Made by a program: the position numbers and the translations under genes. 64,000 nucleotides of DNA from the NCBI RefSeq assembly GCF_008831285.2, contig NC_045138.2, forward strand, positions 15,078,571-15,142,570, read 5' to 3'. The stretch is from Nymphaea colorata. Its lineage: Eukaryota; Streptophyta; Magnoliopsida; Nymphaeales; Nymphaeaceae. This document shows positions 26,970 through 59,962 of the stretch, in pieces. The notes under the pieces are model-generated. The model had not been told where the DNA came from and did no database searches. It was given only the letters and a program-made list of their open reading frames with translations. Positions within the stretch are counted from its first letter, which is position 1, and each line of letters begins with the position of its first letter.

Positions 26970-27279
26970 CTGCATTCAGTCCACTAATGCACTCAATTGG
27001 GTTTTCTTTATCTCTGGAAATAGCAACATCGAATACCAGAGATCCGGATCGCGCATGTAACTTTGATGAGATTGATTGGTAATTAGATTCAACTTCAACT
27101 GAATTATTACGTATGATTAGGTTCCGATATTGTTCAGAAACAAATCTCCACAACAGATCTCCGATTAAATACGAGACTAAATCTGAAATGTAAAACAAAA
27201 TAAAACCACACAATTTACATCTGCGTCCCATCAAATATCAAATCACATCCGAAAAGTTAAATAAAATTATATGTGTTGA

Positions 27280-27769: not shown

Positions 27770-28199
27770 ATGGCACGCCGCGGGACCGCGCTGCTCTTGG
27801 CGTTTCTCGTGGCCCTGAGTCTTCTTCTAGATGGTGGCAATGGTGAGTTTACGCTCTCCCTGTCTCTTTCCTTCCCTAGTGAAGGAATATTCAACGTTCC
27901 TTCTTCTCAAGAGTTGGTCTGAGTGTCTAAAAGCGAGTGAATGATTTTTGACATGGTTTCTTTTTGCTGTTTGGCGTCTACTTCTGATCGAATTTCTACT
28001 TTAACTTCATTGCTTATCTCTGTTGACTGTGGTTGTAACAGGGGCAAGAGGAGCAGCTGTTCATGGGTTTGGAGCTCCGAAGCTAAGGAGAGCAGCAGGA
28101 AACATGGGAAAGACTGAAGAGTGGCTGCTGAGGCAGGTCCCTTCTGGTCCGGACCCTCTTCATCATAATGGTAGCCCGAGGAAGCCCCAGACTCCTTGA
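27770..28199 (+). CDS. CLE peptide precursor, CLAVATA3-like (CLE-A)
   Basis: Exons 27770-27842 and 28042-28199 (GT..AG, phase 1 intron) give a 76-residue precursor. Residues 1-24 are a signal peptide (MARRGTALLLAFLVALSLLL...). A variable Ala/Gly/Arg-rich stretch follows, then the CLE motif RQVPSGPDPLHH (55-66) and a ten-residue tail, NGSPRKPQTP. The motif differs from the Arabidopsis CLV3 peptide RTVPSGPDPLHH at one residue, as recalled, and has the Asp8 typical of CLV3 rather than the common Asn8. A tail after the motif is also a CLV3 trait. The mature, probably hydroxylated 12-13-mer would be secreted and perceived by CLV1/BAM-type LRR kinases; a role in meristem-size control is inferred from the family. 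Copies B and C are below. Confidence 0.88.
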
Positions 28200-28528
28200 T
28201 ATCGTTTTTCCATAGCGTCGGTTCGCCCTCTGCGGCTCACAATTTCACCTTTTTCTTGGTGCGGCTAATCTTTGTGATGGGAAATCTTATATAATATATA
28301 CACATGAATGGACGTGTAGCTCTGTGGCCTTGGTTCACAAGTTAAGCGTACGTACCGGTGACTTTGTGGATCATCGTCGTCGATATATATGTAATATGTA
28401 CGTAGGAAATTGACGTATTAAAGGAGAAGATGGCCATGTTCTGCCTCTTTTGATGTAATGCTTTTGCACCCTCGTTTTCATAATGAAAATTTAATGTGTA
28501 AATGATCTTAGCCGTCTATCTTTCTTTC

Positions 28529-28585
<57 letters not shown>

Positions 28586-29100
28586 GGCCTGTTTATATCC
28601 TTGAGTGGAGTGATTGTCCTTGCACCTCTAGAAGCACTTCGTGCGTTTATAGTTCGATTGGGGTTTGCAGCTTTTCTCTTGCTTACGTTGTTAGCAGCAG
28701 AGGTTCCCACAGTTCTGGAATTTCCATACCAAACTTAAAAGTTTTATTGATAATGGTCAAAGCATAGTCCCTCCCATTCCATCCATCCATGCTGACAAAA
28801 ATTTCAGTTAGTAATGAGCAGAATTACTTTATCTTGGATTGTTATCGTATTCATTAGTTATCGTTACTTTTTTCTAGTGGGTAAGGCATCAGTGGGCGCA
28901 AGCACAAGTTTATGAAACTTGCATATCTTATAAGAGGAAAAAAAAAAGTAAATTTTCAAAATTTTATTAATAGCTACCTTAATAGAAATCATCTCATGAA
29001 TTCGGTTTCTTTCTAATATTATATGACAATTGTGGTCTTGTCGTGTATTAATCTTTTGCTTGTCCTTGAGAAAGTCCTGTATTTTCAAAATTCTTTACGT
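28200..29100. other. CLE-A 3' region with microsatellite
   Basis: The 3' flank (GATATCGTTTTTCCATAGCG onward) is strongly conserved with CLE-B and less so with CLE-C. A (TA)n(GA)n tract lies at 28533-28586; CLE-B has the same compound tract at the matching place, CLE-C does not. No gene was seen. Confidence 0.6.
28533..28586. repeat. (TA)n(GA)n microsatellite downstream of CLE-A
   Basis: TA repeats pass directly into GA repeats. The orthologous tract after CLE-B is at 33818-33870, which supports a common origin of the A and B units. Confidence 0.95.
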
Positions 29101-29149
29101 CTGTAAAATATAAGTGAAGAACAAACTTCTGTTAACAAATTAACGTTAA

Positions 29150-30060
29150 TGATCAGACTAAAATGGGTTAAGTCGCAAAGGTAGAATCTTGGTCGCCCGT
29201 AACTTAATAATGAACCTGAGGATCATCCAAATGGGAGAGAGGCAGTCTGTCGATGCTTTTTTTGATGGGTATGGGTGATTTACGTGAAAGATCTGTCAGA
29301 GATTACGGCAGAATCTTTCTTTTACGTTTATCGGTGACAGGATCATGCAGGGAAGAAGATTTGCTTTCAATTAACTCGGTGTCAGATCTTCGAGAACGCA
29401 AAATTCATAACGCCGGCCGCATTAATTTAACAGCTTCAAACCAGAAGACGACGCATTACTCGATGTTTAATGTGATCAGAGACGTAGCTGATTTAACGGC
29501 GACCAACTAATTCTTATAAATCTATAAATTGCTTGAATTGAACGCATACTTAAGACTAAATATCACTTCATACGTACGATTAAGAGTCATGGACACACAA
29601 CCCTCTCGTGCAAAACTTTTTCATGGATCGCATGTCACGATCCGTCCTTCGAAAACAATAATTGCTAGATTCTCGACAAGTGTTTTTGCCGTTTGGGCAC
29701 AAGTGTCCTGCGTTTGGGGCAGTGACCTACACTTGACGTCACGAGGGATACGGACCCGATGGGGCTCTTAACGGACTCTTCAGCGTACGAAGAGCAGGAC
29801 AAAAAAGGGTATTTCGGTAAATGAGCACGTCCCGGCACCCCATAATTCGGAAGAAGGGCGGGAGCGGCATCTCTGGTTAGTGTTTGTAAGGCGACGGCGG
29901 TACAGTTGGCCGAGGGTTAGATCCGGATCCTGATGTTTGATTGAAACCTTTCGGGTCCAATTTGTAATCATCAACGTTGGATCTCCAGCCCCTGCCTGTT
30001 GGACATGGGCAGATGGAAGATTAAAGCACCAACACAAAAAAAAAAGGAAAAGGGATGATG
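29150..30060. promoter_or_regulatory. Conserved spacer block, copy A
   Basis: This roughly 900-base block recurs at 34420-35335 (B) and, more diverged, at 61490-62320 (C). It is more conserved than the surrounding spacer. It contains TTGACGTCACG (bZIP-type palindrome, intact in A and C, TTGCCGTCACG in B), GCCGTTTGGGCAC and AGATCCGGATCCTGATG. A short minus-strand frame with KVSIKHQDPDLTLGQL stays open in all three copies. It may be a distal promoter of the downstream LEA2 gene or the remains of an unrecognised gene. Confidence 0.45.
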
Positions 30061-30230
30061 TTACGGGCCCGGGACGCTGGGGAGTTCGGATCGGATGGAG
30101 CGTTTGTTACTCTTTCATGAATTTGCTTCATAAACTAGATCAGATTCTCTTAAAATTGTTACTCAATGTTTCATGATTCTACTTTAATATTTAGGACAGG
30201 TTTACGATGAAGTAACAAGTTGTCGTTGTT

Positions 30231-30757
30231 GCTAAAAAATGTCTCTTATGGTTATCGAGAATTTGGATCTCTCTTGCATGTCTTTTGTTTCTCCAAAATT
30301 CAGTCAACTTCATTAAATGCAATGTTTTCCAAGTTCTTTTTTTTTTTGTTTTTCTTTTTTCCAACTTTCACTTCATGTAGTGTTTCCTTTAGACGGCAAA
30401 CTGTTTAAACTTAATTTTGAGTTCACTCCCGCCTAGCTTTCAACATCTTTCATTCATTTAAATATTTGGTATCTAAGGATGTCAATAGATTGGGTTTGAA
30501 ATGGATGCAACGTTTACCATATCTAATTTTTCGAATGTTCAATACAAATAAACAAAAGTTTATCCCATTTCCAAATCCGATTTTTAGATTAGCGATTCCA
30601 ATCAGACTTTTATTTTCATATCTGAATCTCATTTTGAACACCCAACTAAATATGAACCGCAATATGATGGGTTAAGAACCTACCTTGAAAATGTAACTAG
30701 AATATTGGATGTTTATTTGAAACTCCGTTCAACACAATCAACTACTTGTTTAAAAAT
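30231..30757. other. About 520-bp segment present in unit A, absent from unit B
   Basis: Units A and B align up to ...GTTGTTGCTAAA and again from TGAACCGGAATCGG. Between these points A has roughly 520 extra bases, while B has about ten. The segment is AT-rich with no terminal repeats or coding features I can see. It could be an insertion in A or a deletion in B. Confidence 0.55.
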
Positions 30758-31489
30758 GAACCGGAATCGGAAAAAATGCTGTTTTCTTAAATTCAAATCT
30801 AATCCAATTTTTTAATCAAATGTTAAACCTTTTTTGTTACATAACCCACTTTTTTGTATCAGATCGATGGGATATCTGATTCAAGTAGAAGCTTCTTCTT
30901 ACATCTTCTGTATAAATACATTGAAAGTGGAAAAGTAGTTTGCACAGTTCCTGGAAAAACAGTTTGTGGGAATCTACCAAGTCAACCTTCGTATCATTTC
31001 TGCGTTCCAAGAGTACAATTTCCATGTTTTTTTTTTCTATGCTCACTGAAATAAGTTTTTAGAATATATACCGAAGAGGAGGGAAGCTTTATGGACGGTC
31101 ATAATCCACCAATAGTGTCTAACATAACTGTAGAGCTGTCGAATTTTAGCGGTTATTAGTAGACTCCACTTGCTTTTCAACTATTGTTATTATATATATA
31201 TATATACCCATAGATTCCATTATCTTCCTGTCAGCCAGAATTGACATCTTCTGTACACCAGTGAATTATGAAATATGATTTCAGAAATCCTGCGCATCCA
31301 AACCAGGTGCTCCCTGGCTTCTCCAACCCAACTTATGATGTTGCCCTTCATTTTAATTCTACTCCACACCACCTCTTCTGGCTATACTCATTTCATTGAT
31401 TCATTCCTTGCAAATATTTCTCCTCTCTTGGGTTTCCAAAAGATTCATGCCAAGTTATCAAGGGGCACGTCCAAAGGCAAGCCAACCCA

Positions 31490-32242
31490 ATGAAGCACAG
31501 CAGCAGGCCACAGCAAGCTACTGCAGTTTCTGCAAGCGAACACCACAACCATCAATTGTACCATGAGCCCAGTGACAACTGCTATGTGAAATTCAACGGC
31601 AGCCATGGACGGATCCTCAGCCTCTTGCTCAAGTTTGTTCTTGCCTTCTCTGTCATCCTCTGCTTTGGTGATCCGATTGCCGTGCTCCTTCTCAGACCAG
31701 CCATGGTTGAGGTCAGCTTTGAGAAGGCATCACTAACAAAGTTCAGCATCACCAACAAGAACATCCTGAATTTCAATCTTGCTTTGGATGTCAGAGTGAG
31801 GAGCCCCAACAAGAAAATTGGCATCTATTATGAAAGCCTTGAAGCAGTTGCTTTCCACAGGGGCGAGCGGCTTGGTTCGGTTTCGGTGCGGAGTTTCTAT
31901 CAAGAGCTTGAAAACACGACGTAAGTTCACCCTGTATTTAGGGGCCACTTACCGGCCGGTCACTATGTTGTGGTTGAAGATAGGGCTTTTAGTGCAGGGA
32001 GATATGAACCGGAGGTGAATTGCCCTTTGTTGATTCACTTGGGCTCTGTAACTTCATCAAAAAATGCAGAGCTCAAATGGTCAAGATGTGAGGCTGAATT
32101 TCACCCTCTGATTTTTTCCCCTCGGATTCTAAGCTATATTGTCCCCTTCACGTTGGTTGTATTATATTTGTTGGTACCGGGTTTTGTACATTTTATACGA
32201 TTGAGTCTTGGAGGAAAAAGGAAAGTACCGTTCAAGCTTTGA
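31490..32242 (+). pseudogene. LEA2/NHL pseudogene (LEA2-A)
   Basis: This copy is nearly identical to the intact gene at 36196-37014. It opens with MKHSSRPQQATAVSASEHHN and keeps the membrane segment and the LEA2 core with SPNKKIGIYYES. Relative to the B copy, the codon TAT (Tyr) after ENTT is TAA, which ends the protein at 144 residues. About 74 bases are missing soon after (CCGGCCGGTC joined to TTGTGGTTG), shifting the frame. The upstream in-frame start used by copy B (MPSD...) is out of frame here because of one extra G. Coding sequence resumes up to the stop at 32242. A shortened membrane-anchored product remains possible, but loss of half the LEA2 domain argues for a pseudogene. Confidence 0.85.
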
Positions 32243-32411
32243 ATGAAAGGCTTGTGAGTTCAAGTTGAAGAACGTAAAGAGCTGGACGCATGTTCCTGCA
32301 TCCTTAACTAATCGGTGTAATTCCGCCTAGCCCCTGTTTGCTGATCACGAAAATGTAAAACAAAGATGTAAAGTGTATCGAGAAAATGTAAAACTTCGAG
32401 AAAATCTAACT

Positions 32412-32730
32412 GAAATTTGGGTGGCGATAATGACGTGTATGGATTGTCCTCCTCTTAAGAAGCGATGAAGACAAGTTAGGCATTCAGGTTGAGATCTGTT
32501 CTAAGACAGATGAGTATGGCCATGAAGTCCGGATGTCACAAAAGATGGTGTTTTCCTGCCACAGGTTTGTCCTTTTTTCTTAATGCAAGAAAGTAGACAC
32601 AACTAAGACAAATGAGGAAAAGTGCTACTTCTTTTGAAGTACGTTCTGGTTGAGAGAACGAACACGAGCTGTGGGGGCTGTTGACTGATGTTCTGGGCTG
32701 TCTGTTTATTCTTTTGTAAGATGCTTACCC
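32412..32730 (+). other. Conserved module downstream of psiLEA2-A
   Basis: This stretch aligns with 37254-37620 behind LEA2-B. Open pieces such as EICSKTDEYGHEVRMSQKMV are shared, but the terminal open frame seen in B is interrupted by a TGA here. See the B copy. Confidence 0.4.
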
Positions 32731-32781
32731 TTTATGTGTTTGTTCTTCTTAACAAAAGAACCAGGGATCTATATATGTTCA

Positions 32782-33025
32782 TGTTAAGGAAAGATGTCAA
32801 CGGATGAAGATTGGCTACCGTGTGAAGAATCATCTTATCTTATTAAGGAAAGAGATGTCAACGGTTAAAGATTGGCAATCAAGGATTTACCCTGTCAAGA
32901 ATCTTCTAATATTACCATATGTATAGCAGCCTTGTAACATTGTACTGTGTACAACCTTATTGCCAAATAACTCCACTTTGTAACGTGTAATCAATACATT
33001 ATATAATCTAAAGAATACTCTTGCA
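32782..33025. mobile_element. LTR-like fossil, possible solo LTR (copia-type) at the A/B junction
   Basis: A segment of about 244 bases starts TGTTAAGG and ends CTTGCA, with TG..CA termini and the AT-rich, TGTAACATTGTA-like interior typical of short copia-type LTRs. No target-site duplication is visible. It lies exactly between the end of homology in unit A and the start of unit B, so it may be a solo LTR whose flank was lost in the rearrangement. No internal coding region is present. Age cannot be judged from one copy. Confidence 0.35.
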
Positions 33026-33100
33026 AAAAAAACGCCTACCTTCCTCTCCCTCCGCCTTCTCCCTTCTTGACGGAAAGGTTTTGCTTTCTGTGTCGACGAC

Positions 33101-33532
33101 ATGGCACGAGGCCGGACCGTGCTGCTCTTGGCGTTTCTCGTGGCCCTGAGTCTTCTTGTAGATGGTGGCAATGGTGAGATTGCGCTCTTTCCGTCTCTTT
33201 CCATCCCGAGTGAAGGAATATTCAACGTTCCTTCTTCTCAAGAGTTGGTCTGAGTGTCTAAAAGGGAGTGAATGATTTTTTACATGCTTTTTGGTGTTTG
33301 GCGTCTACTTCTGTTCGAATTCCTACTTTAACTTCATTGCCTGGCTCTATTGACTGTGGTTCTTACAGGGGCAAGAGAAGCAGCTGTTCATGGGTTTGGA
33401 TCTCCGAACGTAGGGAGAGCAGCAGGAAGCATGCGAAAGACAGAAGAGCGGCAGCTGTCGCAGGTCCCTTCTGGTCCAAACCCTCTTCATCATAATGATA
33501 ATGGTAGCCCGAGGAAGCCGCAGACTCCTTGA
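33101..33532 (+). CDS. CLE peptide precursor, CLAVATA3-like (CLE-B)
   Basis: Exons 33101-33173 and 33369-33532 give 78 residues, with the same phase 1 intron as CLE-A and a near-identical signal peptide (MARGRTVLLLAFLVALSLLV). The CLE motif is SQVPSGPNPLHH (55-66): the Arg that normally opens the peptide is Ser, and position 8 is Asn. The tail has two extra residues (NDNGSPRKPQTP). The first Arg matters for processing and receptor binding in known CLE peptides, so this copy may be altered in activity. Homology to CLE-A starts only about 70 bases before the ATG, so the TATA box and GC-rich promoter of A and C are absent; an LTR-like piece and the 3' flank of psiLEA2-A lie upstream instead. It may be weakly expressed, differently expressed or silent. 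Confidence 0.8.
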
Positions 33533-33838
33533 TATCGTTTTTCCATAGCGTCAGTTCGCCTTCTACGGCTCACAATTTCACCCTTTTCTCGGTGCGCCAA
33601 ATCTTTGTGATGGGAAATTTTAGTTAATAAATGGACGTGTGGCTCTGTAGTCATTTATTTTAGTTAATAATTTATTTTAGTTAATAAATGGACGTGTGGC
33701 TCTGTGTTCTTGGCTGACAAGAAATCGAGCGTTCGTACCGGTGACTTTGTGTAGCATCGTTTTCATAATGAAAATTTAAAGCGTAGATGATCTTTGCCGT
33801 CTATCTTTCTTGTCTTTTATATATATATATATATATAT

Positions 33839-33870
<32 letters not shown>

Positions 33871-34400
33871 CCTTCATATTTGGGATTTGCAGCTTTTCTC
33901 TTGCCTACGTTTCTAGCGGCAGGGTTTCTCACAGTACTGGAAATTCCAGACCAAACTAAAGTTTAAGTTTTGATGATGGACACAGCATAGTCCCTCCCAT
34001 TCCATCCGTCCATGATCCAAACATAGTGTGAGCTGACAAAAAATTCAGTTAATAAGCAATAATTAGCAGAATTACTTCATCTTGGATTGTTATCGTATTG
34101 ATTAGTTCTCGTTACTCTTTTCTAGTGGGTAAGGCATCAATGTGTGCAAGGCAAGTTTATGAAATTTGTATATCCTTTATAAGAGAAAAAAATGTAAATA
34201 TTCCAAATTTAATTAACAGCTATCTTAATATAAGTCATCTCATGAATTTGGTTTCTTTCTAATATTATATAACAAATTGTGCTATTATCGTGTATTAATC
34301 TTTTGCTTGTGCTCGAGAAAGCCTCTCTATATTTTCAAAATTCTTTACGGATGTACAATATAAGTGAAGATCAAACTTCTGTCAACAAATTAACCTTAAT
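33533..34400. other. CLE-B 3' region
   Basis: Conserved with the CLE-A 3' flank. It has a duplicated stretch (ATTTTAGTTAATAAATGGAC with GTGTGGCTCTGT, near 33624-33704) and the (TA)n(GA)n tract at 33818-33870. No gene was seen. Confidence 0.55.
33818..33870. repeat. (TA)n(GA)n microsatellite downstream of CLE-B
   Basis: The compound tract occupies the same relative place as the one after CLE-A. Confidence 0.95.
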
Positions 34401-34419
34401 GATCAGACTAACATGGCTC

Positions 34420-35335
34420 AGGTCCCAAAGGTAGAACCTTGATCGCCCATAACTTAATAATGAACCTGAGGAAATTAAACTCTGATCAAACCCATCCAAA
34501 TGGGAGAGAGAGGCAGATTAAGGCCAGTGTGTCGACGCTTTTTTTTTATGGGTATGGGTTATTTACGTGAAAGATCGGTTCAGAGATTACGGCAGAATCT
34601 TTCTTCTGCGTTTATCGGTGACAGGATCATGAAGGGAAGAAGATTTGCTTTCAATTAACTCTGGGTGTCAGATCTTCGGGAACGCAGAAAACGTAACGCC
34701 GGCCGCTTCTTCTTCCTGTCATTAATTTAACAGCTTCAAGTTCAAACCAGAAGACGACGCAGTACTCCATGTTTAATGTGATGCGAGAAGTAGCTAATTT
34801 AACGACGACCAACTTCTTCTTAAGACTAAATATCGTTTCATACGTACGATTAAGAGTTGCGGACACACAATCCTCTCGGACAAAACTTTTTCCTGGATCG
34901 CATCTCACGATCCGTCCTTCGAAAACAATAATTGCTCGATATGTTATTCTCGATGAAATGTTTTTGCCGTTTGGGCACGAGTGTCCCGCGTTTGGGGCAG
35001 TGTCCTACACTTGCCGTCACGAGGGATACGGGACCGATGGGGCTCTTAACGGACTCTCGAGTGTACGAAGAGCAGGACAATAAAAGGGTATTTTGGTAAA
35101 TGGGGAGGACTGAGCATCGCTTAATTAGGAAGAAGAGCGGGAGCGGGAGCGGCATCTCTGGTTCGTGTTTGTAAGGCGACGGCGGTACAGTTGGCCGAGG
35201 GTCAGATCCGGATCCTGATGTTTGATTGAAACCTTTCGGGTCCAACCCGTAATCATCATCGCTGGATCTCCAGCCCTGCCTGTTGGACTTGGGCAGATGG
35301 AAGATTAAAGCACAAAAAAAAAAGAGAAGGGAAGA
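34420..35335. promoter_or_regulatory. Conserved spacer block, copy B
   Basis: Counterpart of 29150-30060 and 61490-62320. The ACGT palindrome is altered to TTGCCGTCACG. The minus-strand frame with KVSIKHQDPDLTLGQL is open here too. Confidence 0.45.
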
Positions 35336-36195
35336 TGTGACGGGCCAGGGACGCTGGGGCGTTCGGATCGGATCGAGTCATAGGAAGAGTTGTTTCTATT
35401 TCATGAATTTGCTTTATAAATTAGGTCAGATTCTCTTAAAATTGTAACACATTGTTTCATGATTCTATTTTAATATTTAAGACAGTTTTATGACACAGTA
35501 GCAAGTTGTTATTGTTGCTAAATTGCTACATATGAACCGGAATCGGAACAAATGCCGTTTTCTTAAATTCAAATCTAAAAAATGTTAAAAACTTTTTTTG
35601 TCCACATCCCACTTTTTTGAATCAATTCGATGGGATATCTAATTCACATAAAAACTTCTTCTTACATCTTCTGTAAGAATACATTAAAAGTGAACAAGTA
35701 GTTTGCACCGTTCCTGGAAAATGAATTTGTGGGAATCTACCGAGTCAACCTTCGTATCATTTCTAAGTTTCAAGAGTACAATTTCCATAATTTTCAATGC
35801 TCTCTGAAATAAGTTTTTAGAATATATACCGAAGAGGAGCGCAGCTTTATGGACGGTCATAATCCACCAGTAGTGCCTAACATGTCTGTTGAGCTGTCGA
35901 TTTTTAGCGGTTATTGGTAGACTCCACTTGCTTTTCAACTATTGTTATTATATATATATATATACCCATAGATTCCATTATCTTCCTGTAAGCCAGAATT
36001 GACATCTTCTGTATACCAGTGAATTATGAAATATGATTTCAGAAATCCTGCGCATCCAAACCATGTGCTCCCTGGCTTCCCCAATCCAACTTATGGTGTT
36101 GCCTTTCATTTTAATTGTACTTTTCTGGCTATATACTCATTTCATTGATTCATTCCTCGGAAACATTTCTCCTCTCTTGGGTTTCCAAAGGATTC

Positions 36196-37014
36196 ATGCC
36201 AAGTGATCGAGGGCAGGTCGAAAAGCAAGCCAACCCAATGAAGCAGAGCAGCAGCCCACCGCAAAGTACTGCAGTTACTGCCAGCGAACACCACAACCAT
36301 CAATTGTACCATGATAACTGCTATGTGAAATTCAACGGCAACCATGGACGGATCCTCAGCCTCTTGCTCAAGTTTGTTCTTGCCTTCTCTGTCATCCTCT
36401 GCTTTGGTGACCTGATTGTCATGCTCCTTCTCAGACCAGCCATGGTTGAAGTCAGCTTTGAGAAGGCATCACTAACAAAATTCAGCATCACCAACAAGAA
36501 CATCCTGAATTTCAATCTTGCGTTGGATGTTAGAGTGAGGAGCCCCAACAAGAAAATTGGCATCTATTATGAAAGCCTTGAAGCAGTTGCTTTCTACAGG
36601 GGCGAGCGGCTTGGTTCCGTTTCGGTGCCAAGTTTCTATCAAGAGCCTGAAAACACGACGTATGTTCACCCTGTATTTAGGGGCCGCTTCCCGGCCGGTC
36701 TCGGTTATGGTGTTTTCCGGGATTATATTAATGGGAGACATCAGCGTTGGTTTCAAGTTGACGTTAAGTTTTTCACTAAGTTGTGGTTGAAGATAGGGCC
36801 TCTGAGTGCAGGGAGATATGAACCAGAGGTGAATTGCCCTTTGTTGGTTCACTTGGGCTCTGTAACTTCATCAAAAAATGCAGAGCTCAAATGGTCAAGA
36901 TGTGAGGCTGAATTTCACCATCTGTTTTTTTCCCCTCGGATTCTAAATTATATTGTCCTCTTCACGTTGGTTGTATTATATTTGTTGGTACCGGTTTTTG
37001 TACATTTTATATGA
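36196..37014 (+). CDS. LEA2/NDR1-HIN1-like membrane protein (LEA2-B)
   Basis: A single exon of 272 residues from ATG 36196; a second ATG at 36238 would give 258. A hydrophilic N-terminus is followed by a hydrophobic segment at about 53-79 and the LEA2 domain, with FSITNKNILNFNLALDVRVR and SPNKKIGIYYES, the family's NPN(K/R)(K/R)IG(I/V)YYD-type signature. The domain ends near WSRCEAEF, where the NHL3-type paralogue at 40888 stops; here a further hydrophobic segment, ILNYIVLFTLVVLYLLVPVF, runs to the C-terminus. That would give two membrane passes with the LEA2 domain between them. NHL proteins are plasma-membrane proteins tied to defence and abiotic stress. This gene is the intact sister of psiLEA2-A. 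Its spacer upstream contains the conserved block and a short TA tract. Confidence 0.85.
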   Translation: MPSDRGQVEKQANPMKQSSSPPQSTAVTASEHHNHQLYHDNCYVKFNGNHGRILSLLLKFVLAFSVILCFGDLIVMLLLRPAMVEVSFEKASLTKFSITNKNILNFNLALDVRVRSPNKKIGIYYESLEAVAFYRGERLGSVSVPSFYQEPENTTYVHPVFRGRFPAGLGYGVFRDYINGRHQRWFQVDVKFFTKLWLKIGPLSAGRYEPEVNCPLLVHLGSVTSSKNAELKWSRCEAEFHHLFFSPRILNYIVLFTLVVLYLLVPVFVHFI

Positions 37015-37253
37015 TTCAGTCTTGGAGGAAAAAGGAAACTACTGATTCAAGCTTTGAATGAAAGGCTTGTGAGTTGAAGTTGAAGAACGTTAAGAGCTTG
37101 ACGCATGTTCCTGCCTCCTTAATTGTCGGTGTAATTCCGCCTAACCCCAGTTTGCTGATCCGGAAAATGTAAAAGAAAGACGTAAAGTGTATCGAGAATC
37201 TCAATGAGAACAAAAAGTTTTCATTCATAACTTTAATGTTTTTGAGAAAAATT

Positions 37254-37620
37254 TCGAGAAAACCTAACTGAAATTTAGGTGGCGATAATGACGTGCATGG
37301 ATTGTCCTCCTCCTAAGAAGCGATGAAGAAAAGTTAGGCATTTAGGTTGAGATCTGTTCTAAGACAGATCAGTATGGCCATGTAGTCCGGATGTCACAAA
37401 AGATGGTGTTTCCCTGCCACATGTTTGTCTTCTTTTCTTAATCCAAGAAAGAAGACACAACGAAGACAAATGAGGAGAAGTGCTACTTCTTTTGAAGTAC
37501 GTTCTGATTCAGAGGATGAACACGAGCTGTGGGGCCTGTTGACTGATGTTCTGGTTATGGCCCTTGGCCTATTCTGCTCTGTTTATTCTTTTGTAAGATG
37601 CTTACTGTAAGTGTTTGTTC
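37254..37620 (+). other. Conserved module with a 46-codon open frame behind LEA2-B
   Basis: This block is kept in both A and B units. It contains MTCMDCPPPKKR-stop, then an open stretch with EICSKTDQYGHVVRMSQKMV, then ATG 37470 to stop 37610 (46 residues, MRRSATSFEVRSDSEDEHEL followed by a hydrophobic end). In the A copy the last frame is interrupted. It could be exons of a small unrecognised gene, the LEA2 3' UTR, or a captured gene fragment. Confidence 0.3.
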
Positions 37621-37659
37621 TTCTTAACAAAAGAACTTGGGATCTAAATGTATCCATTA

Positions 37660-40522
37660 CGGTGAGCTTTCAAGGGAAACTGCTAAGGAAGATGAAGAAA
37701 ATTTGCTGGTCCAAATAAACATAGATGGATCAAATGCCCATTTTCTTCACACTTGACGGTTCATTTGTTTTTAATATCTCGAACTGCAACCTATTAAAAC
37801 TGAAAGGGTTTAGCTGGTGTATCTAGGATCTGACTGGCGTCAAAAGCAGTCAGAGTTCGAAAGTGATGAACATTACTCTCTGCAAAAGCAGAAAGCGTGT
37901 GCAGGCCGGAGGCCAAGGTACCGGTCCAGATTTTTAGCAACTGGGACTGTAATTAAAATCTCGCTGCCTGTCTAGGTGCAGCTTTCTCCTGTAAGAATCA
38001 AGGACCAAAAGAAAAAAAAGCAGTCCTTTCCCAACACAACCATCATCTTATCATGAGACAGCTTGATGATCGAATTTGCCGCAGTTGGCTCATGGCTTCG
38101 TCTTTGTACAACTCTCATAGCCATATACCCACAAATTCATGGTTCAGATTTCTGCTTTTCAATATTAGCGGGAACGCTGCAAGAACCATAACATTTAATG
38201 GGCATAATCTATGTCCTGAGATATTCTGAGACCTTTGAAGCTTATAGAATGGCAAGGTTTGGGACTTGGTCTAAGATCATAACTCGACCAACAACATTTA
38301 CTGTTCCATAAATAAGATTGATATCATTTCATGCTTCCAACTTACCACTCTCCAGTCGAACAGCTGTCAAATAAATACTTTAGTACTTGTTGGGTGGTAG
38401 AAGTAGTATTTCATTCGACCACTGGAGGCAGGAGTCCCCACCCTTCCCCTTGTCCCTTCTGGGTACCAGTCGATGCTTCGAGATGACACCCATGTTATGT
38501 TATGCTTCAACATGCTATAGCACTGGAAGTTGATGCTGTGAAATTCAAAATAGAGACTGTCTGATTTGCATTTTACTTATAAAAATGTGTTCAACCGTCT
38601 TTATAAACCCGTCATCAGGTCTTAAGAACACCTCAACAATGAGACTGTAATCTTTTTGGAATAAATTTAATGCATTATGTTTGCACAGGCTTCTTTACAG
38701 ACAGATATATTACATCCAATAGAGAACCCCTTCATGTTTAGGATATGGTTTTAGGACTTTGGCTTTCTTACTCGTTGCCAAATTCAATTTCTGATGAATT
38801 TAAATGTGTCACAAAATTCCGCATGAATCGGCCAATTTGGATCGATTGGTAGTGATTCGAGATTGGCCCGGTTCAGATCACAATTAGGGGGAGATCGTGA
38901 ATCGGCCGATCTTCGGTAGAATCAGCTGAATCTATTTTCCTTTTCGGTCACTTTTTTTCTTCATAATTTTCTTTCACGGGTTTTTTTTTTCTGTTTTCTT
39001 CGCCAATTCCTAATTTTTGTTAAAATGTGATCTTATTAAATCTGGTTCACAAACGATTCGCTTCTTAGGGTCTACTTTTGCATGCTTCTGCTTAGCCTGG
39101 TTTAGATTTTTTGGATTCATCTTTCGTGAACCAATTGGTTGATTATGAACGAATATCACTGATCAACCAAAAAAAAAATCTCTCCATTGATAGGATTATT
39201 CAAAGGTTGCCACCTTATATATTGCATTCATAAAATATAAGAATTTGGAAATATGAAAGTTTTATATAAATTATTGTGGGCCATATGATCAAATCAATGA
39301 AGGTCCATATGCTGTGATCAATTTAAAAAAAAAATTCCTCTAAAAGGACAAATAGCAACAACCCATTTGACTTTGTAAAAAAAGTATTTTTAAAGCGGCA
39401 CTAGATTGTCCAGTCAAGTCATCATATTTTCAAAATTTCACTTTTTAATTTCTTGGTTATCATACTGACGTATATTGTATTAGGATTTTGAATCGGCTTA
39501 GTCGACTCCAAGAAAGAAATTTGATAAAGATCTAGCTCGATTGCATATGACATATAAATGTCAGATCTTTTGTCAGCAACTCCAAATTCAGTTTCTGAAT
39601 TTTAGTTTTATTATTCAATCAGCACAAAGAATCCATCTGATTAAATTTGCATTTGTTTAAAGCTGGATAATACTTGAATAAAAAAACTCACATCCCTAGG
39701 TAAATTTGTTAGCTTGTTCTTTTCATTTTGACCACACAAATGTAAAACCACTTACTTTATTCAACGCAACAAGTGTCTTAAGTGCGGTTTCTTTGTTCGT
39801 TGGCAATTCTTATATGTAATATATAAGAGTTGGAGAAATCAAGGGCCTGCAATAGACAAAGGAACAACTCAAAGAGAAAACTTAGAACTCATTAGAAGTA
39901 CATTCCGATACAACTGACTTGTACGCCCCCGTTTGATTGCGCTAAAATATTTTCATAATTTCAAGTCTCTTCATCAAGATTTCCAATTTCACTTCGACCT
40001 TCTTAGGTCAGACTGAAATCCAGTTCACATTGCACCTGGATGGCTTCCATGTAGAAAAATATCCAGGATTTGTTGTGTTCTGTTTGGCTTGTTAAGCTTC
40101 CTAGAGAATTTGTATGTAAAATCAAACACATCCCCATAAAAGTCCTAGTTAATTTGTATGTAAAAACAAACACATCCCCAAAAAATCCTTTTAAGAGGAT
40201 TAGGACTTACCACTTGGAGCCAAAACCCTTTTTCCTCCTTAAGAGCTGTTCCTGTATCTGATGAACAGACTATAACTGACATTTTGGTACTGTTCTCTTT
40301 AACAGGTCACACATTATTTTGGCGTCACCAACACAACCAATTAAGTTGTGCTCGTTGGAGCTCTCAAACAATCCTCTTTGAGGTATTTGGCAGCAAAAAC
40401 ATTGTATTACTGTTTCATGAATATGTTTTAATTTACAGGAACATACATTCAATATGATATTATTACCAAACGCTCTTTTGGATCTCATTAAACATACAAT
40501 TAATACAAACCAATGACAAAAT

Positions 40523-40580
<58 letters not shown>
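37660..40580. other. Intergenic region between LEA2-B and the NHL3-like gene
   Basis: No supported gene. Homology to unit A ends near 37650. A stretch near 38820-38940 has several GATTCGGCC/GGCCGATC motifs in both orientations, suggestive of a small inverted-repeat element. A 31-base direct repeat built on AAACACATCCCC and AATTTGTATGTAAAA lies near 40108-40178. The region ends in a (TA)n tract (40528-40579). Confidence 0.5.
40528..40579. repeat. (TA)n microsatellite
   Basis: A perfect TA run of about 52 bases some 300 bases before the NHL3-like start codon. Confidence 0.95.
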
Positions 40581-40583
<3 letters not shown>

Positions 40584-40887
40584 TCTTTATTCAATCGTTC
40601 AACCATGAAGAACAGGTACCAAGCATATCATGTTGAACCAAACGTGGTACGCGGACTTCAAGTTCAAACACGAAATGGTCATAACGAGGGGGCCATGAGG
40701 CTGCTCCACAAATTTCCAGCCAACCTCCTCCCTTCTTATGGCTCCCACCTCCTTAAAAGAATAAGGTACTCCCCATTGACAATTTACAGAAGCTATAAGT
40801 CCTCTCTGTTCTGTCCTCATCCCCTCCAATCACTCCACCTTCACCCTTTCCCATTCTCTCAGCAGTTCAGGAACCAGTTTCACAGGA

Positions 40888-53048: not shown

Positions 53049-56000
53049 TTACCAGTAATCCTTGCAAGAACATTGCCCAGCATCAAAGTGATGAAATCGA
53101 TTGGAATCACGCACAATGATCAGTCTTCCTATGATCTGGGATATGATTTTGAAAGCAGAATGACAGTCCCCACATATCCTCAGATTTTTCATTATTCGAA
53201 TCGGCAACTTCCCTGTCGTGCGCGTCAGAACAAATGCAAGAGCAAGCTTCTCGCTGTGATAGCTAAGCAGCTGTTCTTTGTGTTCTGCTTCAAGGTCATA
53301 CAGGGCAAACTCAGTCTGAGGAACATACCCAGCATTCCTCATTTGCAGATTGAGGTCTTCCAGTTTAGCATAGATCACGGAAGCATCCTGGTGAGATGAG
53401 TCGCCGGATACAAACAAGTGAACACCATCCTTCATCATGACCCAACTGCAACCAGGCTCCTTCTTCACTTTCATCCCCCGCATCATGGTCCTCACTTTGG
53501 TTACCTCTTCCCATTTCCCTCCTGAGGCCAACATATTAGACATGAGCACGTAAGTAACTGGGTTTTGAGGTTCCAATTCCAAAAGCCTTTCTGCAGCTTG
53601 AATGCCTAATTCAATGTTCCCACGCGTTCTGCAACATGCACCCAGCAAAGTCCTCCAAATAAGGCTGTTAGGCTGCATAGGCATGCTTCGAATAATCTCC
53701 TCTGCCTTTGTAACTCGACCAGCACGACCAAGAAGATCAACAATGCATGAATAGTGCTCCATTTTTGGAACCAATCCATAACTACTTCTCATGGACTCAA
53801 AATATTCAAGACCTTCATCCACCAAACCAACATGGCTACATGCAGATAGCACTCCAACAAATGTGACGTGGTCTGGTCTCTTGTCTGATTGCTGAAGCAT
53901 TTTTTTGAACAGCTCAAGTGCCTCTTCCCCATATCCATTCCGTGCATAGCCAGATATCATTGAGTTCCACGAAAACTCATTTCTGTAATCCATGAGATCG
54001 AATAGGCGTGATGCATAGTTTACTCTTCCACATTTGGCGTACATATCAACAAGAGAACTCTCAACAACTACATCTGCTCCGAAAGATGATCTTATGATGT
54101 AGGCGTGAACCTGCATCCCAAGTTCAAGTGCTGCAACAGCAGCACAAGCACTAAGCACCGTGGCACAAGTGAAGCAGTCTAACTGGTGTCCCACGAGCAA
54201 CATATAACCGACGATGTCCATGGCCTTGCTTGCAAGCCCATTATGGGTGTAGCCAGTGATCATGGAGTTCCATGACACAACATCCCTCATGGACATTCTA
54301 CGGAAAACCTGTTCCGCATCGTTCATCTCTCCACATTTTGCATACGAAGAAATAAGAGCATTCTCAATTGCGTTGTCTTTAGCAAGCCCATTTTTCAGAG
54401 TGAGTGCATGGACCTGCCTACATGACTCAAGAACTGAAGCTAAGGACAATGCTGCAAGTACATTTAAGAAGGTCACTCTGTTCACAGTCCATCCTTCATG
54501 AATCATAGAAAGGAAGCAACCCAATGCTTCGGTTGCCATCTCACAGTCAGCTAACGCTCCGATCATCGCATTCCATGAAACCTGATCACGTCCCACCATC
54601 CTATTGAATACTTTGAAAGAATCATTTATGCTCCCAGATGAAGCATACATGGTGAGAAGGGAATTTCCAACAGAAACATCTAAGTCCAGGCCCCGTTTTA
54701 TAATATGAGAATGAATTTGCTGTCCAGACTGAACAGAAGTCAAGTTCCCGCATGAGCTCAATGTGCTTACGAATGTCAAGTTGTCTGGCACAAGTCTTTC
54801 CCTCATCATCACAAGGAAGGTCTCGAATGATTCTTGGTAGCACTCATTTTGATCAAGCCCCGAGATCATTGCATTCCATGATATGGAATCCTTCTTAGGC
54901 ATGAGTTTGAAAACTTTTCTGGCATCATGGATAGCACCACACTTAGCATACATGTTAACCAGAGCATTTCCAATGGCAGTCTCATGCTGCATGCCAGTTC
55001 GGAATACATGAGCATGAACCTCTCTTCCCCAACTTGGTTCACTTCCACAAGCACAAGCACTAAGAAGAATAACAATAGAATCAGTATTCATCTCAAAGCC
55101 TAAATTTCTCATCCTAGAGAAAATTTCTAAAGTTTCTTCCCAGCAGCTCTGTTTCACATATCCAACCATCAGACCATTGATTGAAACAACATTCTTTTCC
55201 ACCATGTCATCGAATATGCGACGGGCAACAGCAACCTGCCTAAATCTTGCATACGTGCTAACCACAGCACTCCCCACATACACATTGCCTAAATGGCCGG
55301 ATTTAACGACATACGCAAGAATCTGCTCAACATGTTCCTGGCAGCAGCTTATAAGGCTTCCCAGTGTGTACTCATCTGGGTACATACCCATGTGTCGCAG
55401 CTCGGATAGGAGCTCAAGCGCCAAATCATTTTCTTGGAACCGCGAACAAGTTGATATGATACCGTTCCATGACACCATATTCTTCTCAGGAATTTCATCA
55501 AACACTGTAAAGGCATCATCAAACGAGACGCAGTTCGCATACATTCCCATTAGCACATTTCCAACAACCGTATGCAATGCATATCCGTTCTTGACGACGA
55601 GTCCATGTACTGCTTCCCCCAGCCGCCGATCACGTCGTTGACTGCACGCACGAAGAACACTGCCCAATGCAAAGTGGGTAGGGTCGAAACCTTCCCTCCT
55701 CATCTCGGAGAAGAGAGATACAGCCTCGCTCGGTCGGCCGTGTCGAACGTGACCAGAGATGATGCAGCTCCATGACACGGTGTTTCGTTGAGGCATTCCG
55801 TCGAACAACTTGCGAGCGTCCTCGATGCACCCCACGTTGACGTACACATTGACGAGAGAGTTGGCAAGGAAAATGTCGGCATCGAAGCCGGAACGAATGG
55901 CATGGAGGTGATGGCGCCGCGCTTCGCTCACACTGGCAGACGTGTTGCAGCCCTCGACCAGTAGGGAGTAAGTGCTCGAACTGAGTGGAGATTCTTCCGT

Positions 56001-56129
56001 AAAAGGTGTGGAATGATAGAGGGAGGCCCATCTGAACCTTGATAAGGTGGTCGCCGGCGAAGGGTAATGACGGTGGATTCTGTAAGCATGGATAGCTGTT
56101 GCGCCGGGGATTCTGGCCCGTTGATGCAT
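53049..56129 (-). CDS. DYW-class pentatricopeptide repeat protein (At5g09950/MEF7-like)
   Basis: A single exon on the minus strand encodes 1026 residues from the first ATG at 56129; the frame is open farther up to 56210 but has no ATG there. An Arg/His-rich N-terminus (about 1-50) could be an organelle transit peptide. About twenty PLS-type PPR motifs follow, with repeated NAL(V/I)xMYAKCG and VSWNxMIxGY units. E and E+ domains are followed by a complete DYW deaminase: HSE near 958-960, CGDCH near 986-990 and the terminal Asp-Tyr-Trp. Such proteins bind an organelle transcript with the repeats and carry out C-to-U editing with the DYW domain. From memory it most resembles Arabidopsis At5g09950 (MEF7, mitochondrial). 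Target sites cannot be told from the sequence here. It is the intact parent-type copy of the pseudogene at 22745-24425. Confidence 0.9.
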   Translation of the reverse strand: MHQRARIPGATAIHAYRIHRHYPSPATTLSRFRWASLYHSTPFTEESPLSSSTYSLLVEGCNTSASVSEARRHHLHAIRSGFDADIFLANSLVNVYVNVGCIEDARKLFDGMPQRNTVSWSCIISGHVRHGRPSEAVSLFSEMRREGFDPTHFALGSVLRACSQRRDRRLGEAVHGLVVKNGYALHTVVGNVLMGMYANCVSFDDAFTVFDEIPEKNMVSWNGIISTCSRFQENDLALELLSELRHMGMYPDEYTLGSLISCCQEHVEQILAYVVKSGHLGNVYVGSAVVSTYARFRQVAVARRIFDDMVEKNVVSINGLMVGYVKQSCWEETLEIFSRMRNLGFEMNTDSIVILLSACACGSEPSWGREVHAHVFRTGMQHETAIGNALVNMYAKCGAIHDARKVFKLMPKKDSISWNAMISGLDQNECYQESFETFLVMMRERLVPDNLTFVSTLSSCGNLTSVQSGQQIHSHIIKRGLDLDVSVGNSLLTMYASSGSINDSFKVFNRMVGRDQVSWNAMIGALADCEMATEALGCFLSMIHEGWTVNRVTFLNVLAALSLASVLESCRQVHALTLKNGLAKDNAIENALISSYAKCGEMNDAEQVFRRMSMRDVVSWNSMITGYTHNGLASKAMDIVGYMLLVGHQLDCFTCATVLSACAAVAALELGMQVHAYIIRSSFGADVVVESSLVDMYAKCGRVNYASRLFDLMDYRNEFSWNSMISGYARNGYGEEALELFKKMLQQSDKRPDHVTFVGVLSACSHVGLVDEGLEYFESMRSSYGLVPKMEHYSCIVDLLGRAGRVTKAEEIIRSMPMQPNSLIWRTLLGACCRTRGNIELGIQAAERLLELEPQNPVTYVLMSNMLASGGKWEEVTKVRTMMRGMKVKKEPGCSWVMMKDGVHLFVSGDSSHQDASVIYAKLEDLNLQMRNAGYVPQTEFALYDLEAEHKEQLLSYHSEKLALAFVLTRTTGKLPIRIMKNLRICGDCHSAFKIISQIIGRLIIVRDSNRFHHFDAGQCSCKDYW

Positions 56130-56210
56130 GTTGCAGAGCGTGCGACTCCATATCCTCAAAGTGCCACAACCACAGTAAGGATCAAAGACATGCAAGGGCC
56201 CTTGAAACAA

Positions 56211-56248
56211 ACCCGTAAATCTTCCAACCTCACCATTTGTTTTCTAGT

Positions 56249-56283
<35 letters not shown>

Positions 56284-58695
56284 CCTCTTGCTGCATGTGG
56301 TTTTGTTGTTGCAGGTTTTGTAGGCTGATACTGCGTTGAGATCCTGAGCGGAATTACAAAGTTCCAACATTGCAAGTTGCAGCTCCGATCAAAATCGTGA
56401 GAGGTTTCAACATTGGCATTAGACTATTAGAGCCTCATTTCTAAAACCTGCAATGATCATTAAATACGCTTCGGATGCCGCCTTCTTTTTGCTGTCAACT
56501 GTGAGGTTATTCGTACGCTCAGTTTAGCCACTGTACCTCAGCCTCGATATTTTATATTTTAATTAGACATTTGGTGTCTCAAGAGAAGATGACCCTGTCG
56601 TTACAGGTGGTGTTACTCTTTCTTTTTCCTCAAAGTATGTGGATGACGATGAATGGTCCATGGTTTTTCATGCCCTTGAATTCTTCATCTTAGTGTAAGA
56701 TCTGACGATTACATGTAATCATGTCTCATGTCTGGTGTTAAGGTCGCTGCTGATAGCTTTGGATCTCAAATTCAGGAGTGATTTACAATCCTTTTGAATC
56801 TCAAATGGAGTGATTTAAGATCCTCTGAACTAAGATTTTAAGATCTTAAACTTGGTTTGATTTTTTTTTTCTCTCTTTCTCTATGTCCTCCTCTCTCCTC
56901 TTACATCGACCAATCTCGACCACCATGGCAGTCGATCTCCTCCTTTTTTTCTTGTGTTCTTGACGGTGAGTCTCTCTCTCTACTGGTTCCTGCCAGCTGG
57001 TGATGCATCCTGCGTCAATTTTCGACATGGATCATAGATCCATGGAAGAAACTGGAGGGGCGTCCGATCTCAAAACCATGGATTCACCCCATCAAAGATT
57101 TGAAATTCACGGTTGTGAGATCCAACGTTTGTTAAAACTATGGATTTCCCCTGAAAATCCAGCCTTAGCATATCATTAGTTGCATATCAGACACAGATTC
57201 AATGCCAATTATGAAACTGCATAACAAAATCCAAACTTAATTAGTAATCATGTCTAAGTTCTTTCATAAATCCGATAATTAACACATTCAAGAGTGGATC
57301 TATATTCATATAGTGCAACAACATGCCTTAGTTCGAATGTTCTCCGTAGTCAAACATCCTTCGGATTCTGTATATTCGATTTCAAGCAATGTTTGATCAT
57401 ATTAGGTACCAGACGATATTCCGCTGCATAGATATCAAATAATATTCGAACATCGACATTACAAAGACCCTGTATCAGATTCATGCAATTTGCAGCCCTC
57501 AGTTCGAAGTAGGAGCAACAAAAGTTGGTCCTCTACCATGGATCATCGGTTTGGCTCATGGCCACAACCATACATCTACTTCAAGTTTGCTCTCACTATT
57601 GTGGGCTTACATCAAAACAGGTACGTGGTTTTGTTTTTCAACATAATATATTTACCGTCAGTTACGAGGCTTCCCATAAACAGGCTTTCTCATCATAATT
57701 AATAGGTTTATGAGTAAATTATAAGGAATTCCATTTGTAAGAATTTTAACAAATCACTTCAACATATCTTCTTCCGTTTCTTTCATATATCTGAATATTC
57801 TACATATCTTCTATTTCTTTCATATATATGAATATTCTTCAATAGCCAGACAATGAGAAGTTGATTTACTTAATATTGAATAACAAGACCCACCCAATGC
57901 TTATTCCAAGTCTTATGACAACAATGAATAGGAAAGGATATATTTAACTTTGTCATTTATCATGAGGACAATAACTCTTTTGTCAACAGGAGTTCCAAAT
58001 AATTTAAGAATATCATTCATTGGATACTCCTTCAAGATATAATCATATAACAACAATGATCAAATAGACTCCCACTTTTCAAAAATTCACATAGACTTCC
58101 AATTGGTTGGCAACTCACGCAGAATTTATTGTGACTTTGTGTAATACAAAGAACAATTAACTGAGAGACTATTTCAAGTTGTACATGGATTTTCCGTCTT
58201 GTAATGCCTTTCCTAATATACCCTTTTATAAAAATATTTTATTTAAATCACCATTGATCAAAGTAGTTTTAACATATAACTGCCAAATATCTAAGGCGTA
58301 ACGTAAGATTTTGTCACTAATTGACATGCCAGATTTATCAATCATTTCATCAAGGCCCACTGCAACACATACCTCCTTCTGATCACTCAAATATGACTAG
58401 AGAGTTTGAGACCTTTATGACTTGTCAATATTTGAGAAGCAGAGAAATTGGATTCGACATGTTTTTTCAAATTGATTCACAGTCATTTCATTGCTAGAAT
58501 GTTTATAAAAATGTCCAACAGATCAAACTTGATGTTAATGGATCACCAGATTTGAATTTTTCAAATAATTTGATTTTGCATCTCTACTCTCAATCAATCA
58601 CATAGTTTCATAAAAAATATTGGTTAAATAGAATCATAATCAATCAGAGGCTTAAGCATCGAAAGCAAGCAAGCCATTGTATCGCACCGGATTGA
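56211..58695. other. Intergenic region between PPR and CLE-C
   Basis: The region begins with a (CT)n tract (56251-56281) that may lie in the PPR promoter or leader. Around 57160-57370 it resembles 24690-24900 in inverted orientation. An open stretch near 57495-57620 (including GPLPWIIGLAHGHNHTS) ends at a donor-like ACAG|GTACGTGG; I do not recognise it. The remainder, 57700-58650, is AT-rich repeat-like DNA. Clear homology to the CLE-A upstream region starts near 58700. Confidence 0.5.
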
Positions 58696-59017
58696 GTTTT
58701 ATAGGAGAATAGCTGCACTCAATTGGATTTCTTTGTCTCTGGGTATGGCAACATTCAATACCGGATCTGGATCGCAGGTGTAACTTAATGTGATTGATTG
58801 GAAATCAGATTCAATTTCACATCTTCGAAATTGAAAGTTACAACTGAATTATTGCGTATAATTAGGTTCAGATATTGGTCAGAAACAAATCTCCATAGCA
58901 TATCTAAGATCACATATGAAACAAAATCTGAAATATAAAATAAAGTAAAATTATGCAATTTACACCTGTATCCAATCAAGTACGAAAATTACATCCGAAA
59001 TATAATATGAAGTTGTA

Positions 59018-59516
59018 TGGTGCCATTAAGATCCAGGGCGGCGCGCTGGTAACGGAAACTGGCTGAAATCCCAAGACGGAGCAGAGCTCTCCGGTTTCGT
59101 CAGGGCAAAGATCCGGCCCGACGTCAGCCATCGTCCCCGTTGCGGGAGCCCGAGAGAAACGGGCGCCTCACCTCCCTCCTCTGCCACATTAAAGATTCTC
59201 TCATCATATTCTTCCCACGCTCCGGCAAAGAGCGGCGGGGGTCCCACCGCACAGCTGCCGGAGAAGGATGGCGGTAGCTGTCCGTTCTCGGACGGGACGG
59301 CCGGCGCCGGTGAATGATGATCTGCCAGCGGCCCACGAAATCATGGCCCATGCTTTCCCTCCTGAACGGCTGCGGCAATGATGCCCTCCTCCTGACCCCC
59401 TTCCACCATCTCCACTATAAATCTGTTGCTTCCATTTCTAGAAAACAACCACCGGCCTCCCTATCCTTGCTTCTCTTCCATTCTTGCCGTATAGTTTTGA
59501 TTACTGCGTTGGCGAT
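59018..59516 (+). promoter_or_regulatory. CLE-C promoter block, shared with CLE-A
   Basis: Counterpart of 27280-27769, with the same GC-rich stretches, GACGTCAGC site, GGCGCCGGTGAATGATGAT and TATA box spacing. Confidence 0.6.
59416..59422 (+). promoter_or_regulatory. TATA box of CLE-C
   Basis: CCACTATAAAT stands 101 bases before the CLE-C ATG, as in CLE-A. Confidence 0.65.
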
Positions 59517-59962
59517 ATGGCAGGACGGGCGATCGCGCTGCTCTTGGCGTTTTTCGCGGCCCTGAGCCTTCTTCTGCTTGGTGGCAGTGGTGAGATTGCC
59601 CTCTCTCTCCCTCTCTTCTTAATTTTCTTTCTCTAGTGAAGGAATGAACAACGTTCCTTCTCATTAGTTGCTGTTCTTCCTCCTGCTGGGAGCCGTAAAG
59701 CGAGTGAATGATTTTTGACATGCTTTTTGGTGTTTGGAGTTTACTCCTGATTGTAACTCTACTTTAAATTCATTGTTTGGCTCTGTCGACTGTGGTTGCA
59801 ACAGGGGCAAGAGAAGCAGCTGTTCATGGTTTTAGAGCTCTGAAGCGAGGGGGAGCAGCAGGAAACAAGGGAAAGACAGGAGAATGGCAACTGAGGCAGG
59901 TTCCGACTGGTCCGAACCCTCTTCATCATAATGGCAGCCCGAAGAAGCCCCAAACTCCTTGA
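59517..59962 (+). CDS. CLE peptide precursor, CLAVATA3-like (CLE-C)
   Basis: Exons 59517-59589 and 59805-59962 give 76 residues with the same intron phase as CLE-A and CLE-B. A signal peptide (MAGRAIALLLAFFAALSLLL) and a basic variable stretch precede the CLE motif RQVPTGPNPLHH (55-66) and the tail NGSPKKPQTP. It differs from CLE-A at positions 5 (Thr for Ser) and 8 (Asn for Asp). It keeps the first Arg, both hydroxylation-prone prolines and Gly6. It is the most diverged of the three copies but retains the promoter block and TATA box, so it is likely functional. The role is inferred as for CLE-A. Confidence 0.86.

Follow-up and report, generated by a model that had tools for sequence, protein, structure and literature searches.

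The 64,000-nucleotide stretch of Nymphaea colorata DNA analysed here (contig NC_045138.2, positions 15,078,571 to 15,142,570; hereafter the window) carries on its + strand three genes for CLE precursors, denoted A (27770-28199), B (33101-33532) and C (59517-59962). Comparison of the copies and their surroundings makes it fairly probable that two successive segmental duplications turned one CLE gene of the CLV3/CLE40 group into a tandem family of three, in which B is displaced and under relaxed constraint. The longer matching pieces of the copies are 78-89% identical at the DNA level, which excludes a chance resemblance.

The predicted precursors comprise 76 (A), 78 (B) and 76 (C) residues, the model of A translating as MARRGTALLLAFLVALSLLLDGGNGARGAAVHGFGAPKLRRAAGNMGKTEEWLLRQVPSGPDPLHHNGSPRKPQTP. 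A six-frame scan of the window with a CLE regular expression gave three matches, all on the + strand, corresponding to the 12-mers RQVPSGPDPLHH of A (28131-28166), SQVPSGPNPLHH of B (33458-33493) and RQVPTGPNPLHH of C (59894-59929). In each gene model a 73-nt exon 1 (27770-27842, 33101-33173 and 59517-59589) encodes a hydrophobic leader that peaks at Kyte-Doolittle values of 2.8-3.1 over 13 residues and is a predicted signal peptide. It is followed by a phase 1, GT-AG intron with GTGAG[TA]...ACAG borders, of 199 nt in A (27843-28041), 195 nt in B (33174-33368) and 215 nt in C (59590-59804). Exon 2 encodes a variable region, the 12-mer and a C-terminal tail, which is NGSPRKPQTP in A (28042-28199), NDNGSPRKPQTP in B (33369-33532) and NGSPKKPQTP in C (59805-59962). 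Exon lengths are equal across the copies except for one in-frame 6-nt insertion in B, whereas the introns of B and C differ in length from that of A by 4 and 16 nt, respectively. Because the introns vary by non-multiples of three while the exons keep frame, the introns appear to be real, and the comparative evidence for the predicted splicing is good; read without splicing, the frame of exon 2 has an upstream stop in all three copies. The initial annotation had described three genes with a common exon structure, a signal peptide, a CLV3-like tail and predicted introns; its coordinates and 12-mers proved exact, the tail is kept in all three (NGSP[RK]KPQTP in A and C), and splicing is backed by the comparison of exon and intron lengths.

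The CLE family is described as having a C-terminal 12-residue motif and a precursor of about 60-120 residues (PMC2254619). The motif found here occupies residues 55-66 of precursors within this range, and the hydropathy of the exon 1 leader supplies the signal peptide expected of the family. A Pfam scan of CLE-A alone returned no family at E<=0.01, although whether Pfam contains a CLE model was not checked.

Two layers of duplication were detected by self-BLAST and repeat finding within the window. In the first, a PPR gene at 22759-24419 matches 54499-56191, and the CLE gene with its upstream region at 26988-28486 matches 58714-60231, with further pieces extending to about 30.0 and 62.3 kb. 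In the second, 27695-32804 matches 33026-37677 in several pieces, defining a 5.3-kb tandem unit with a CLE body and a LEA_2/NHL gene. Copy 1 (27695-32804, + strand) comprises the CLE-A body, downstream DNA and NHL-A, and copy 2 (33026-37677, + strand) the CLE-B body, downstream DNA and NHL-B. Synonymous distances of 0.069 (A-B), 0.232 (A-C) and 0.230 (B-C) agree with the A/C duplication being the older. In the most likely order of events, as judged from these distances, a block with the PPR gene, the CLE gene and its promoter would first have been copied to give A and C, and the 5.3-kb unit would later have been copied in tandem from A to B, carrying along the transcribed part of the CLE gene and the NHL gene but not the CLE promoter.

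The neighbouring genes show reciprocal damage. The PPR copy upstream of A (22759-24419, - strand) is broken, with matches in several frames to residues 13-569 of 1053, whereas the PPR-DYW gene upstream of C (53049-56210, - strand) has an open frame of 1053 residues. Conversely, the LEA_2/NHL-type gene beside A (31460-32197, + strand) has an in-frame stop and lacks a stretch relative to NHL-B, whereas NHL-B (36115-37014, + strand; PF03168) is open, with 299 residues counted from a TTG; its true ATG probably lies inside this frame. No NHL match was found downstream of CLE-C within the window. A further LEA_2/NHL-type gene of 229 residues (40888-41577, + strand), 36-37% identical to NHL-B, lies between the B unit and the C block. 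A segment between the PPR and CLE genes (24520-24887 versus 57165-57522, 69% identity) runs in opposite directions in the two blocks of A and C, so that an inversion probably followed the first duplication.

The upstream regions set B apart from A and C. A can be aligned with C from a point some 780 bp ahead of the ATG; over the A upstream region (26988-27694, + strand; TATAAA at 27669) and its homolog in C (58714-59441, + strand; TATAAA at 59416), 566 of 675 columns are identical. Similarity between A and B reaches no further upstream than 27695/33026, a point 75 bp from the ATG, beyond which it falls to the level of unrelated sequence; alignment within the window found no counterpart of the approximately 700-bp A/C region upstream of B. 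The 221 bp directly before B (32805-33025) are unrelated to the A/C region, have an A+T content of 67% (60% for the window), contain TATATA at 33000 and gave no match when compared with the right end of tandem copy 2. Conservation between the A and C blocks is highest (0.94 over 100 columns) at 27306-27409 in A, within the upstream region missing from B, and this stretch represents a candidate promoter element.

Unique changes were counted in A and B with C as the outgroup, the gene body being defined as 27695-28310 (607 aligned columns). A local-type alignment gave 14 changes in the gene body of A and 41 in that of B (p=0.0004), compared with 67 and 54 in the downstream DNA (Fisher 0.0003 for the contrast). 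Separate alignment of the gene-body segments gave 14 and 43 changes, and a global alignment 14 and 38 (p=0.001). The excess in B is spread over untranslated regions, intron and exons alike. The gene body of A is slower than its own downstream DNA (p=0.009), and relaxation alone explains this slow A gene body better than the fast gene body of B.

Two other causes of the excess in B were considered. Gene conversion between A and C is unlikely: A-C identity in the gene body is 0.74-0.87 by segment, compared with 0.84 upstream and 0.85 in the PPR gene, and only exon 2 with the 3' untranslated region, at 0.87, is higher. CpG decay in B was rejected, as CpG transitions account for only three of its 41 changes.

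Ratios of nonsynonymous to synonymous differences (pN/pS) were calculated in nine uncorrected tests on a very short gene. For motif and tail together they are 0.49 (A-B, p=0.59), 0.24 (A-C, p=0.053) and 0.21 (B-C, p=0.010); outside motif and tail the ratios are 2.46, 0.80 and 1.51, respectively, none of them significant. These values hint at constraint on motif and tail rather than on the remainder, as expected of a CLE precursor.

Given its missing upstream region and the excess of unique changes in its gene body, B has probably been displaced and is decaying under relaxed constraint, heading towards loss or a new expression pattern. Several observations weigh against this interpretation. B keeps its frame, its splice sites and its downstream DNA, and TATATA at 33000 sits 101 bp before its ATG, exactly the spacing that TATAAA has in the other two copies, so that B may still be transcribed. 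The global alignment yields an excess for B in the downstream DNA as well (62:98), so that the gene-body contrast is lost (p=0.14), 44 of the 98 changes coming from one poorly aligned segment (28311-28485). The excess in B at the amino-acid level, nine changes versus four, is not significant (p=0.27), nor are the pN/pS ratios over the whole coding sequence (A-B 1.45, A-C 0.60 and B-C 0.84). B has also changed faster in its gene body than in the DNA downstream of it (p=0.006), a difference not expected from simple relaxation. Finally, the B-C ratio for motif and tail is low, though this value includes the branch of C. With its intact frame and splice sites, retained downstream DNA, TATATA sequence and low motif and tail ratio, B may thus be expressed and useful.

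The 12-mers were compared with 118 printed motifs, comprising 50 from poplar (PMC4776436), 52 from tomato (PMC9670457) and 16 Arabidopsis peptides (PMC5538625). None of these is identical to the 12-mer of A, B or C, and no occurrence of the three was found in the Creative Commons-licensed PMC literature. The statement of the initial annotation that A, with Asp8, is one residue from CLV3 was confirmed against the printed Arabidopsis peptide RTVPSGPDPLHH (PMC5538625), and the exact 12-mers bear out Asn8 in B and C and the absence of Arg1 from B. Within the printed set, A is closest to AtCLV3 and PtCLE25 (one difference each) and two differences from AtCLE40, AtCLE11 and AtCLE13. C is closest to AtCLE8 and to RLVPTGPNPLHH of poplar and tomato (one difference) and is two from AtCLE40, while B is closest to AtCLE11 and AtCLE13 (two differences). 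The motif alone would file B and C with the CLE8-13 type; their precursors are nevertheless plainly paralogues of A. By our own reading of the tables rather than any published rule, the DPLHH ending of A recurs in nine of the 118 printed motifs, including AtCLV3 and AtCLE40, and the NPLHH ending of B and C in eight, including AtCLE8, AtCLE11 and AtCLE13.

At position 8 the motif set of PMC7552357 has 50% Asn and 47% Asp, which makes the two residues a common alternative. The difference among the present copies is a single G/A base in the codon; B and C share Asn8, and both directions of change are equally parsimonious when the outgroup carries Asp, as CLV3 does, each requiring two changes. At position 1 the printed motifs have Arg in 93 cases, His in 23 and Lys in two, and Ser in none of the 118. 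Arg1 is replaced by Ser in B only, where the codon differs at two bases (TCG in place of AGG), and because A and C agree the loss is derived in B. Residue 1 is important for CLE receptor choice according to a study of TDIF and TDR (PMC5383425), and by this analogy Ser1 likely weakens or alters receptor binding by the B peptide.

Group I of the CLE genes of soybean and common bean consists of CLV3 and CLE40, and as described in PMC4526924 every member has a predicted intron, the CLV3 orthologues carry a C-terminal extension, and a few CLE genes outside the group also have introns. A, B and C have both an intron and a C-terminal extension past the motif, as in Group I (PMC4526924), and together with the motif of A these features place them in the CLV3/CLE40 group, a fit that supports the assignment without proving it. 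Within the group the evidence is split, since all three copies combine the CLV3-like Pro7 with the CLE40-like Gln2, and residue 5 is CLV3-like in A and B (Ser5) and CLE40-like in C (Thr5). The designation of the genes as CLV3-type in the initial annotation therefore holds for the CLV3/CLE40-group architecture and is otherwise too narrow, A being one residue from CLV3 but two from CLE40, with Gln2 being the CLE40 residue.

We regard it as possible, though on the unlikely side, that the locus is orthologous to CLE40 and serves in differentiating cells instead of providing a stem-cell signal; this alternative is compatible with the other readings and was weighed separately from them. The CLE40 precursor, which we take to be short with a tail ending in TP, would resemble the precursors of A, B and C. 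Gln2 and, in C, Thr5 match the printed Arabidopsis CLE40 peptide RQVPTGSDPLHH (PMC5538625), and CLE40 falls in the same intron-bearing group (PMC4526924). The locus differs from CLE40 in having Pro7 in place of Ser7, Asn8 in B and C and Ser1 in B, while Pro7, Ser5 and the smaller distance of A favour CLV3. Arabidopsis CLV3 (peptide in PMC5538625) and its orthologues resemble the present genes in having an intron, a signal peptide, a C-terminal extension and a motif close to that of A, and differ in that one intron was found here, the precursors have 76-78 residues, and B and C have Asn8. The choice matters because in the Arabidopsis shoot the two peptides have opposite roles, CLV3 restricting WUS through CLV1 and CLE40 promoting meristem size through BAM1 (PMC8594942). 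As to gene order, grass FON2 regions are reported not to be perfectly collinear even among themselves (PMC7917188). Arabidopsis CLV3, for its part, presumably has two introns, compared with one here, and is presumably flanked by an NHL/LEA gene, for whose locus tag a literature search returned no paper; a neighbour of this kind would favour CLV3 over CLE40.

A and C would each direct the synthesis of a secreted prepropeptide from which the signal peptide is removed and a C-terminal motif of 12-13 residues is cut out; in all three precursors the residue after the 12-mer is Asn. The released peptide would undergo proline modification and act as a ligand of CLV1/BAM-class receptors in a meristem. 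Secretion, processing, receptor and tissue are the most likely ones given what is known of the CLE family.

The copies are tandem paralogues, but the proposal of the initial annotation that they reflect dosage growth or subfunctionalization treats them as equal, and B lacks the A/C upstream region and has a faster gene body. That all three are active, redundant meristem ligands in a dosage or compensation relationship, such as that of the tandem SpriCLV3a/b genes of Solanum prinophyllum, is accordingly rather unlikely, although frames and splice sites are intact throughout, the downstream DNA, a possible 3' control region rich in TAAT cores, is partly kept by all three, and a dosage relationship between tandem CLV3 copies has been published (PMC11964936). 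The unusual Ser1 of B is a further point against it.

In the downstream DNA, islands common to all three copies lie about 0.6, 1.1 and 1.4-1.8 kb past the stop. The 3' region of CLV3 is described as having a cluster of WUS-bound TAAT elements (PMC9365274). The 2 kb past A, B and C contain 35, 38 and 37 TAAT/ATTA cores, respectively, and seven of 100 other 2-kb segments of the window reach 35, with A+T content uncontrolled. The densest 130 bp hold seven, eight and eight cores, numbers reached by 27 (seven) and 13 (eight) of 100 segments, and these maxima fall at equivalent sites in A and B, while that of C lies elsewhere. A conserved downstream control region was nevertheless reduced to a weak lead, since the copies are related and the islands are not clearly above the conservation of the PPR pseudogene: A-C identities are 0.77, 0.81, 0.74 and 0.89, compared with 0.85 between the broken and intact PPR genes. 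The last island (131 of 147 positions identical) is slightly above the PPR value, its best 100 columns reaching 0.92 (p=0.034 when tested against the PPR rate, with no correction for the many windows). A 134-nt noncoding stretch about 1.7 kb past the CLE-A stop (29858-29991 in A, 35143-35276 in B and 62161-62294 in C) is 95% identical to A in B and 85% in C, not clearly above the neutral level, and has no Rfam match. No structured RNA at Rfam gathering scores and no tRNA were found, and a search for relatives in viral contigs gave 53 pattern matches, none of which was confirmed.

An improbable alternative is that B has become neofunctionalized or a competing ligand, with an altered motif (Ser1 and Asn8) under new upstream sequence. 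Arg1 was lost by two base differences while most of the motif and tail was kept, the study of TDIF and TDR assigns CLE receptor specificity to residue 1 (PMC5383425), the A-B pN/pS ratios exceed 1 both over the whole coding sequence and outside motif and tail, neither significantly, and the B gene body outpaces its own flank. Drift in a promoterless copy predicts the same pattern, however; positive selection is significant in no test, and the fast untranslated regions and intron of B are not explained by selection on the peptide. It is correspondingly doubtful that CLE-B is a natural promoter-swapped CLV3/CLE40-group ligand that would act outside the parental domain with a changed receptor preference or in competition with A and C. 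An assembly artefact, in which unmerged haplotypes are counted as tandem copies, is most improbable: no specific point favours it, the A-B unit matches piecewise at 79-89% identity and different genes are damaged, the long stretches common to A and C match at 78-81%, and the copies have different flanks within one sequence.

Other features of the window include an LRR receptor kinase gene at 14826-18498 (+ strand), consisting of two open reading frames (14826-17477 and 17986-18498) with LRR, LRRNT and kinase domains, which we take to resemble TMK-type kinases. A 95-bp direct repeat (22240-22334 and 22446-22540) is 98% identical, and a pyridine nucleotide-disulphide oxidoreductase gene (PF07992) is represented in part at 46214-46753 (- strand). 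With its LRR kinase, PPR-DYW and LEA_2 genes, the window has a gene content that points to a land plant.

Duplicates of a stem-cell ligand provide material from which changes in meristem size can arise; in Solanum, part of the variation in fruit-organ number is already accounted for by CLV3 genes in tandem (PMC11964936). The present locus offers a natural comparison of promoter loss with ligand change, since A and C keep the upstream region that B lost and the peptides differ at positions 1, 5 and 8, and is thus a good test case more than a surprise. A local family of CLV3-like genes, which the initial annotation called unusual, has a published counterpart in the spiny Solanum species, several of which have tandem CLV3 copies, intact and pseudogenized (PMC11964936). 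Local duplication with intact and decayed copies is common to both, and in S. prinophyllum editing revealed the dosage relation. The two intact copies of that species are reported to be identical in coding and cis-regulatory sequence (PMC11964936), whereas in the present locus the motifs are not the same and the upstream region common to A and C is missing from B. The tandem genes PvCLE15a-d of common bean provide a precedent for the loss of Arg1, as two of the four lack it (Val in a, Lys in d); unlike the present genes, they have no predicted intron and are not CLV3 or CLE40 orthologues (PMC4526924). The locus is a local duplication of a known kind of gene rather than a new signalling system, with copies more divergent than those of Solanum and one of them displaced from its promoter.

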